A stretch of DNA of 64,000 nt, taken from positions 1 to 64,000 of the forward strand of contig CALVFU010000003.1 of assembly GCA_944326905.1 (NCBI GenBank). Reading direction: 5' to 3'. Below, piece after piece: positions 17,398 to 19,153 of this stretch. Under the pieces are notes generated by a model. The model searched no databases. It saw only the letters and a program-made list of their open reading frames with translations, and was not told where the DNA came from. Source of the DNA: Candidatus Gastranaerophilales bacterium. GTDB taxonomy: Bacteria > Cyanobacteriota > Vampirovibrionia > Gastranaerophilales > Gastranaerophilaceae. Both the position numbers and the translations under genes were made by a program. How positions within the stretch are numbered: the stretch's first letter is position 1; each line of letters begins with the position of its first letter.

Positions 17398-17426
17398 TTG
17401 ACAAATATATTTATTTGTGTGAATAT
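17398..17426 (+). promoter_or_regulatory. Promoter of the Trp-codon leader
   Basis: A perfect TTGACA (17398-17403) and a 17-nt spacer lead to GAATAT, which is preceded by TGT (extended -10 type). It ends 6 nt before the leader ATG, the geometry of the leaderless promoters in this window. The -10 itself is weak, and AATATT one base later is an alternative. Confidence 0.5.
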
Positions 17427-17432
17427 TTAGGT

Positions 17433-17483
17433 ATGAATTACCAAAATAAAAATATTAATAATATTTGGTGGCGCCTGTATTAG
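17433..17483 (+). CDS. Leader peptide with tandem tryptophan codons
   Basis: This 16-codon frame encodes MNYQNKNINNIWWRLY. Two adjacent TGG codons (17466-17471) sit just before the first hairpin, and the stop codon falls in its loop. The WWR segment recalls the E. coli trp leader peptide. There is no proper ribosome binding site (AGG is only 1 nt away), but the promoter spacing fits leaderless translation. It should act as a sensor of charged tRNA-Trp rather than as a functional product. Confidence 0.6.
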   Translation: MNYQNKNINNIWWRLY

Positions 17484-17549
17484 TACAGGTTCCTCTTATG
17501 TCTCTTGATAAAGGTAAACCTGTACAAATGATTGTCAGGTTTATTTTTT
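17466..17549 (+). promoter_or_regulatory. Tryptophan attenuator: competing hairpins before a terminator
   Basis: Segment 1, CCTGTA (17474-17479), pairs with segment 2, TACAGG (17484-17489). The longer segment 2, GTACAGGTT (17483-17491), pairs perfectly over 9 bp with segment 3, AACCTGTAC (17517-17525). Segment 3 is also the left arm of the terminator. A ribosome stalled at the Trp codons would cover segment 1 and favour 2:3 antitermination. A ribosome reaching the stop at 17481 would cover segment 2 and allow termination. This is trp-operon-type logic. Confidence 0.7.
17516..17549 (+). terminator. Attenuator terminator
   Basis: AAACCTG plus ACAA (with one bulged T) pair with TTGT plus CAGGTTT to give 11 bp with an ATGA loop, then ATTTTTT. 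It ends only 4 nt before the AAGGAG of the next gene, so it is placed to control that gene. Confidence 0.8.
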
Positions 17550-17565
17550 AATCAAGGAGAAAATT

Positions 17566-18747
17566 ATGTCAGTTAGTTTAATAAATACATTATCTAATCC
17601 CCTAAGAACAGCATCCAAATTTGTATCATATCAAGAAAGCGCATCAGGTCTATCTGCATCGCGCCTTATTCAAGATACAGGCACATGTCTTGCGCCCAAA
17701 GTGACATTTTCCAGAAGTAAAGAGGACTTAGCCGAAAATGTATTTCTTGAATTGTCTGAAAATGCAATCGTATATTTTGGACCTGCAATTCTAGGTGAAA
17801 AAGTTGCTCGTAAAGTATTTTCAAGGGGACTTAATTTAAAAGAAAAAGAATTAATTGCAAAATCATTAAAAGAATTAAATTGCACTGCCCCTAATATTAA
17901 GAAAAAAATTGTTCCGATAAAAGCAGCAATTGCACTATCTACAATGTTGATACCACTTGCTGAATTTTCGCTAAGCTATTTGAAAAATTTATTCACATTA
18001 AAAGTATTCAAAAAAAGTGATTTCCAAAATATAGCATCACTAGAAAAAAATGAAGAGGATAAAGAGCAGCAAAGAAAAGTTGAAAGAAGCGCAAAACAAA
18101 AAATTGGTATTGCCGCTGCTCTATACGGCGCTCTCCTAGGGGCAAGTATTCTTTTAGCCTCAAAAGGAAAAGATGCAAAAATTCTACAAAATTTGAGCGA
18201 AATTATATTAGCGCCTGGAGATAAACTTGTTAAGAACAATAAAAAAAGGGCGAAATTTTTAAATAAATATTTCAGCCAGGATTTTAACTCTGAAAATGGA
18301 AAACTTGCAATGAGCAAAGGTCAGTTGACAGCGTGTGTAACTATAGGCGGACTTGGATACTTCGGCTCATCAGCCGACAGAGGTAAAGAAAATCTACTTG
18401 AAACAACTTCAAGATTTCCGCTTGTTGGTTTTTATATAATTACCGGCGGGGAACTATTTGACAAAGGCTTTAAGAAATTATTAAATAAATTCGGATATTG
18501 TAAAGATGTAATAAACGAAGATTTTTCATCACCAAGCTTCAAAGAATTAGAAACAAAAGCAAAAGAGTTATCTATTATAAATAAATCAAATATAAAAAAT
18601 GAATTTAAAAAGCTTGCAGGGCAAAAGGTATTAGTATCAGGTGTTCCATACTTATTCGGCATTGGTATTATGGGGTTCTTTGTAGCAGGGATGACAAATT
18701 ATTTTACAAGGAAAAGGCATAAAAACTTTATACAAAAAAGCTGCTGA
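17566..18747 (+). CDS. Trp-free membrane protein under Trp attenuator, function unknown
   Basis: The 393 residues contain no tryptophan at all. About four hydrophobic segments are visible: near residues 112-135 (AAIALSTMLIPLAEFSLSYL), 183-202 (IGIAAALYGALLGASILLAS), 268-290, and 360-382 (YLFGIGIMGFFVAGM). Long Lys/Glu-rich soluble stretches separate them, including a probable coiled coil around 155-180. There is no signal peptide and no family I recognise. AAGGAG lies 6 nt before the ATG. The leader suggests expression rises when charged tRNA-Trp is scarce, so a role in tryptophan supply is a reasonable but unproven guess. It abuts the converging gene. Confidence 0.75.
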   Translation: MSVSLINTLSNPLRTASKFVSYQESASGLSASRLIQDTGTCLAPKVTFSRSKEDLAENVFLELSENAIVYFGPAILGEKVARKVFSRGLNLKEKELIAKSLKELNCTAPNIKKKIVPIKAAIALSTMLIPLAEFSLSYLKNLFTLKVFKKSDFQNIASLEKNEEDKEQQRKVERSAKQKIGIAAALYGALLGASILLASKGKDAKILQNLSEIILAPGDKLVKNNKKRAKFLNKYFSQDFNSENGKLAMSKGQLTACVTIGGLGYFGSSADRGKENLLETTSRFPLVGFYIITGGELFDKGFKKLLNKFGYCKDVINEDFSSPSFKELETKAKELSIINKSNIKNEFKKLAGQKVLVSGVPYLFGIGIMGFFVAGMTNYFTRKRHKNFIQKSC

Positions 18748-19119
18748 TTATTGTATTATACTTGATTCAGCTGTTCCGCCTTTTACAGTTGGCGCAGCAT
18801 TTTTAATGATATAGGGGCGAACAAAGCTCCAAATACCGTAAAGATTTACCAGGTTACCCGCAATCATAACTGTAGTTTTTATTTTTTTTGAAGATTGCGG
18901 GATAAAAGTTCCGAGTGTTAATGCTGATGTTCCAAGCATAAATGCTAAATATCCTTTAAATACACTCCTAGGTACTGCTACACAATCATTTAAATCAGCA
19001 GAATTTTTTATTTTTGTTGAAAATTTGTCAGTAAATTTTTCCTTTGGCTTAGAATAATAATTTAATTGTGTTTCTGTACTTTTAAAATTACTTTGATGTT
19101 GGATTGATTGTACTTTCAT
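18748..19119 (-). CDS. Small two-helix membrane protein with SIQ-type N-terminus
   Basis: This 123-residue protein starts MKVQSIQHQSNFKS, which resembles the start of the GH77-like protein in this window (MRINSIQKNIIF). After a polar region, two hydrophobic helices (about residues 55-75 and 83-103) form a hairpin. I recognise no family. The ATG was preferred over an in-frame TTG 18 nt upstream because TTGAAA-16-TATTAT ends 6 nt before it. Confidence 0.55.
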   Translation of the reverse strand: MKVQSIQHQSNFKSTETQLNYYSKPKEKFTDKFSTKIKNSADLNDCVAVPRSVFKGYLAFMLGTSALTLGTFIPQSSKKIKTTVMIAGNLVNLYGIWSFVRPYIIKNAAPTVKGGTAESSIIQ

Positions 19120-19125
19120 ACTCAA

Positions 19126-19153
19126 ATAATAACTCAAACAAAATAATTTTCAA
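19126..19153 (-). promoter_or_regulatory. Leaderless-type promoter
   Basis: On the minus strand TTGAAA, a 16-nt spacer and TATTAT end exactly 6 nt before the ATG of the small membrane protein. No ribosome binding site is present. Confidence 0.55.

Follow-up and report, generated by a model that had tools for sequence, protein, structure and literature searches.

The gene for a 393-residue membrane protein in a 64,000-nucleotide stretch of Candidatus Gastranaerophilales DNA (the window) is almost certainly under ribosome-mediated transcription attenuation of the tryptophan type, and its product is very probably made when charged tRNA-Trp is scarce. We favor a reading in which the attenuator drives a membrane protein that would help a Trp-auxotrophic gut bacterium obtain tryptophan, with paralogues tuned to other amino acids; that amino acid acquisition is the protein's own job we put forward with slightly less assurance. 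The regulation is strongly supported by sequence comparison; the transport role is a proposal. The evidence consists of the architecture of the leader, its conservation and covariation, a switch of leader codons between paralogues, the purge of the sensed residue from the proteins and the missing biosynthesis genes, and from it we infer the in vivo response and a part in uptake or scavenging.

The features of the locus are collected in Table 1. Direct reading of the window bore out the leader frame with adjacent Trp codons described in the original prediction, as well as the ribosome binding site behind the T-run, and the four pairing segments, in trp-attenuator order with their T-run, are present and supported by folding. 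Two details needed adjustment: segment 1 begins 1 nt, not 2 nt, after the Trp codons, and position 17398, given as the start of the feature, begins the -35 box of a likely promoter and not the leader.

Table 1. Attenuator and structural gene at the window locus.
Feature	Position	Strand	Basis or remark
-35 box TTGACA, putative promoter	17398..17403	+	same distance to leader ATG kept in relatives
-10 region, GAATAT (17-nt spacer) or AATATT (18)	17421..17427	+	5-6 nt 5' of leader ATG
Leader peptide MNYQNKNINNIWWRLY, then stop	17433..17483	+	WW conserved across Trp clade
Leader start ATG	17433-17435	+	read in sequence
Sensor, two adjacent TGG (Trp) codons	17466..17471	+	read in sequence
Segment 1, GCCTGTA	17473..17479	+	folding, leader comparison
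Leader stop TAG	17481-17483	+	read in sequence
Segment 2, (G)TACAGGT(T), GTACAGGTT	17483..17491	+	folding, leader comparison, permutation test
Terminator hairpin 3:4	17510..17549	+	T-run 17544-17549; -15.2 kcal/mol, z -5.0
Segment 3, AACCTGTAC, partner of segment 2 (antiterminator) or 4 (terminator)	17517..17525	+	folding, comparison
Segment 4, CAGGTTTATTTTT	17536-17548	+	read in sequence
Shine-Dalgarno AAGGAG of structural gene	17554..17559	+	read in sequence
Membrane protein, 393 aa, without Trp	17566..18747	+	no family match; ATG at 17566

The window leader is more stable than its shuffled versions over its whole length (z -4.7), from the Trp codons onward (z -5.5) and in its terminator half (z -5.0), none of the shuffles being equally stable in any of the three cases. 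When segment 4 was removed, the 2:3 antiterminator became the minimum-energy form (-19.2 kcal/mol), and when it was restored the 1:2 plus 3:4 terminator form was favored. Hairpin 3:4 and its U-run form an intrinsic terminator ahead of the structural gene. A simple consensus terminator scan of the window did not list it, which is probably explained by a bulge in the 3:4 stem. In the proposed mechanism transcription would start at the leader ATG or immediately beside it. With charged tRNA-Trp scarce, the ribosome would stall at the Trp codons and cover segment 1, 2:3 would form and the gene would be transcribed; with charged tRNA-Trp available, the ribosome would reach the stop codon and cover segment 2, and 3:4 would end transcription. 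In 35 of 102 distinct WW leaders the end of the -10 box lies exactly 6 nt 5' of the leader ATG, and at the window this distance is 5-6 nt; transcription thus probably starts at that ATG or right next to it, the leader peptide being read from a leaderless transcript. A Shine-Dalgarno motif is present in other leaders.

The arrangement shares with the E. coli trp operon attenuator (trpL, RF00513) the adjacent Trp codons followed by Arg, the overlapping 1:2, 2:3 and 3:4 pairings, the T-run terminator and a stop codon at the 1:2 loop; the E. coli leader reads ...WWRTS. It differs from trpL in that it controls no trp biosynthesis genes but a membrane protein without a family match, in an organism without trpA, and in the probable leaderless transcript of many family members. 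The RF00513 covariance model gave no match in the window. The only Trp leader RNA that scored there at all was the Bacteroid-trp leader (RF01692, listed in PMC2864571), which belongs to a different phylum and reached 23.6 bits (E 1.6), half of its gathering score of 49 bits. In the ilvL, thrL and hisL attenuators, too, alternative hairpins follow a run of codons for the amino acid that is sensed; those attenuators control biosynthetic operons, whereas in the present case paralogues of a single membrane protein carry the Met, Trp and Ile leaders. The logic of uncharged tRNA switching on acquisition genes is shared with T-box-controlled amino acid transporters, although sensing here would be by ribosome stalling, and Rfam gave no T-box match at the window.

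The alignment of relatives proposed with the original prediction was carried out, and the prediction withstood both of the comparative tests that could have refuted it. Of 146 related genomes, 62 encode relatives of the membrane protein, and GTDB genomes contain 264 coding stretches that match it; among the 80 of these matches listed, most carry Gastranaerophilales or Melainabacteria titles, many are "uncultured bacterium" and a few have other labels. In a sample of 292 genomes of the phylum the family is confined to the order of the window, and a sample of the class adds distant members inside that class, so that on present sequences the family appears restricted to it (Gastranaerophilales and kin). 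In the closest relatives the upstream leader is mostly 14-27 codons long with WW just 5' of the first pairing segment. Every Trp-clade relative whose upstream sequence was examined keeps the Trp leader (with WW in all but two, which have one W), and three seeming exceptions use a TTG start and have WW too. The neighboring genes vary between loci, the largest neighbor cluster comprising 15 ORFs among 80 loci, and no conserved neighbor pointing to a function was found at those loci. As the neighbors differ while the leader persists, the leader belongs to the membrane-protein gene. A covariance model built from the leader found one strong site in the genome of the window, at this gene, and its strong matches across 89 genomes all lie at the membrane-protein gene; the idea that the leader also controls other genes was rejected, the model finding no further strong site. 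Protein searches found no family members in viral contigs. A 14-base motif, TGGTGGCGCCTGTA, does match viral contigs, and was discarded as a sign of viral leader copies after the leader model scored the 80 viral loci examined as chance.

The pairing segments differ among relatives with compensation. A coordinated change is seen between the window (GCCTGTA / TACAGGT / AACCTGTAC / CAGGTT) and one relative, L040 (GCTTGCA / TGCAAGC / GCTTGCACT / GCAAGC). We permuted pairing partners 2000 times among 54 Trp leaders with distinct segment 1: pairing 1:2 scored 14.7 with own partners against 11.4 with swapped ones, and 2:3 scored 20.9 against 15.9, none of the 2000 permutations reaching the own-partner value in either case. 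Pair counts in the close set A2 contain no double changes and are uninformative, because the segments barely vary there. All three overlapping helices are present in simple ungapped form in 78 of the 102 distinct WW leaders, and 0.85% of shuffles matched the real helix score. The remaining 24, mostly of WWRGLV type, have no simple ungapped 1:2/2:3/3:4 set, which counts against our preferred explanation. In a subset of that type (L083 and some of L089-L149) the leader continues for another ~80 nt that contain additional hairpins, and a simple T-run is missing behind 3:4; these leaders may be controlled translationally or in two stages. The long Trp leaders L030-L047 and L050 have a second conserved Trp near the 3' end (FCWR or LSWR, then stop), beyond segment 2. 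Stalling at this Trp would place the ribosome over segment 2, a situation that the attenuation model leaves unexplained.

Another group within the protein family, not mentioned in the original prediction, is 34-46% identical to the window protein and has Met-rich leaders, for example MQNNTMMMQMMMMQSLMSGGHCYAFRMC or MMMQMMMMQ runs. A strong terminator ends most of the Met leaders listed, and their 2:3 pairing scored 21.7 with own and 16.7 with permuted partners (0 of 2000 permutations). Also new are one copy with an Ile-rich leader (L065) and one with a mixed Ile-Met leader (L062). Trp-type and Met-type copies share one genome in many cases, and many genomes retain a single type. On the protein tree the leader type changes 12 times, against 54.9 for shuffled labels, and Trp leaders precede all 75 of the 75 members of the Gastranaerophilales Trp clade. 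A third group is leaderless and in three copies (L237, L238, L234) lies just downstream of a probable tatC, judged by eye from a reading frame that resembles the TatC C-terminus; the types under leader control may descend from this group as a constitutive ancestor. In distant class members (L070, L071, L186, L190, L195, L240) the leaders contain many Met, Met/Ile or aromatic codons (FYWSWYGF), which suggests that leader control is old within the family.

The protein composition follows the leader codons. Proteins behind Trp leaders have 0.06 Trp per 100 residues, compared with 0.70 behind Met leaders and 0.86 in neighboring proteins; non-start Met stands at 1.51 behind Trp leaders, 0.75 behind Met leaders and 2.31 in the same background. 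The window protein was noted to be free of Trp, and this holds as a property of its clade. At window position 42, Trp is the residue in 98% of Met-clade proteins, 69% of distant class members and 5% of Trp-clade proteins, most of which have Leu; at position 380 the corresponding values are 93%, 47% and 0%, with Phe in most of the Trp clade; position 143 is Met in 55% of Trp-clade proteins but in none of those of the Met clade. The direction of the purge agrees with the leader codons in both clades, the sequences being related and the comparison hence representing few evolutionary events. Two observations count against the preferred explanation: the single Ile-leader protein is not Ile-poor, and distant WW-leader genes outside Gastranaerophilales encode 1-9 Trp each. 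Met-clade proteins also contain little Cys (0.42 per 100 residues, against 1.11 for Trp-clade proteins), as though sulfur amino acids were generally avoided. Purging Trp would allow the protein to be synthesized during the starvation that induces it, and the paralogues would act likewise for methionine and, probably in one case, isoleucine, their leader codons and composition having switched to match. Since the amino acid read by the leader is one that the protein largely avoids, the protein is probably an emergency tool for obtaining that amino acid.

The genomic background is one of auxotrophy. No TrpA (tryptophan synthase alpha) was found in the genome of the window (94% complete), and TrpA exceeds the cut-off in just six genomes of its family. 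It is present despite the Trp gene in G054 (family) and G098 (order), and within the family it occurs in 1 of 43 genomes with the Trp gene and 5 of 45 others (p 0.20). A trade-off between the Trp gene and trpA loss within the family is therefore not supported, and auxotrophy is taken as background. The Trp-prototrophs G098 and G042, with a full trp operon, have no WW leader upstream of trpE. For methionine, the B12-methionine synthase activation (MetH) domain is absent from the order as sampled and MetE from the family, where PF02574 occurs in three genomes only, all without the gene. Neither MetQ nor Trp_Tyr_perm over the cut-off was found in 59 genomes. SLC6-type (SNF) transporters, a family that includes bacterial Trp transporters, are found in 0 of 20 sampled family genomes with a Trp-leader gene and 7 of 16 without (Fisher p 0.0014, relatedness ignored). 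This anticorrelation, a correlation only, fits the Trp gene replacing an amino acid transporter. Together with the auxotrophy and the Met-leader paralogues, it strengthens the suggestion made in the original prediction that the protein may help to obtain tryptophan.

The protein has about 6 hydrophobic helices and a pI of 9.7, and AlphaFold models (pLDDT 90.4 and 86.8) are nearly all helical. Searches of Pfam, NCBIfam, PADLOC, PHROGs and PDB sequences gave stray weak matches only, and no credible match to known amino acid transporter families (SLC6/SNF, Trp_Tyr_perm or other Pfam or NCBIfam families) was found for 67 members. Foldseek and VIA searches of the two confident models gave nothing below E 0.1 and nothing above noise; the best VIA match, to MsbA (Z 5.5), is within noise for helical proteins. 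The earlier statement that this is neither a known trp gene nor a known transporter agrees with these results. With neither a homologue of known function nor a fold match, transport is a role that we infer, and about 6 hydrophobic helices are few for a stand-alone secondary transporter, which counts against acquisition. Abutting the end of the gene and convergent to it lies a 129-aa ORF without a family match (18748-19137, - strand), whose N-terminus carries an NFKS motif similar to the beginnings of several other proteins encoded in these genomes.

The absence of a transporter fold match also counts in favor of a rival reading, in which the attenuator works as described and the protein is instead a starvation-survival or growth-arrest factor, protecting the membrane or translation, with paralogues responding to different amino acids so that whichever is scarcest triggers the same response. 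Both Trp and Met are rare and encoded by one codon each, the protein is very basic and has a high Lys content (12.8%, against 8.5% in the background), and a precedent exists in the Down-Trp proteins of chlamydial persistence, where some proteins used under Trp depletion are Trp-poor (PMC3937554). The abstract of that study mentions no coupling of attenuator codons to paralogues, whereas in the present family the purge agrees with the leader codon in two clades and for two amino acids. Many genomes keep one type only, and no family genome sampled combines the Trp type with an SLC6-type transporter, which argues for an amino-acid-specific role; we consider a survival factor rather unlikely, at perhaps a quarter of the weight. 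Translational or mixed control, with the downstream hairpins of long WWRGLV leaders occluding the start region, deserves similar weight for part of the family: it would account for the 24 WW leaders without the simple terminator arrangement, but at the window itself the terminator in the leader is strong and carries T6.

Alternatively, the signal read by the leader codons might be an antibiotic or the speed of the ribosome, and not the supply of an amino acid. Membrane proteins under leader control are often drug or ion transporters, such as the B. subtilis BmrCD efflux pump, controlled by an attenuator peptide (PMC4191407), and leader ORFs are found at Salmonella mgtCBR (PMC3641672). Stall peptides would, however, conserve the peptide, whereas here the N-terminal part varies freely while the WW or M runs stay, and the codon runs change identity alongside protein composition, making such sensing improbable. 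A chance resemblance, in which the hairpins are a plain terminator for the ferritin gene upstream of an ordinary gene, has in its favor that a terminator is expected at that place; it is refuted by the comparative data and next to impossible, for the leader tracks the membrane-protein gene and not ferritin through unrelated neighborhoods and its segments covary.

On the preferred reading, that of an attenuator driving a protein for amino acid acquisition, the leader codons serve as a label for the role of an uncharacterized protein family. A broader proposal, which we offer tentatively and hold at a little under even, is of a family of acquisition membrane proteins with a new fold, whose substrate would be legible from the leader codons and in whose paralogues substrate (Trp, Met, Ile), leader codon and composition would change together. 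If true, this would be a new-fold uptake system in auxotrophs that are without MetQ and, with the Trp gene, nearly always without SLC6-type transporters, and a candidate route by which auxotrophic gut bacteria obtain Trp and Met. In the literature searched we found no attenuator described for the Gastranaerophilales lineage and no comparable attenuator based on Met codons. The present case extends ribosome-mediated attenuation by Trp-codon and Met-codon leaders to these uncultured relatives of Cyanobacteria. The two paralogous clades, each with the sensed amino acid removed from its own protein, form a natural experiment. Short or split copies of the gene (G066:C16, G081:C4, G261:C17 and G294:C23) are probably decaying genes.
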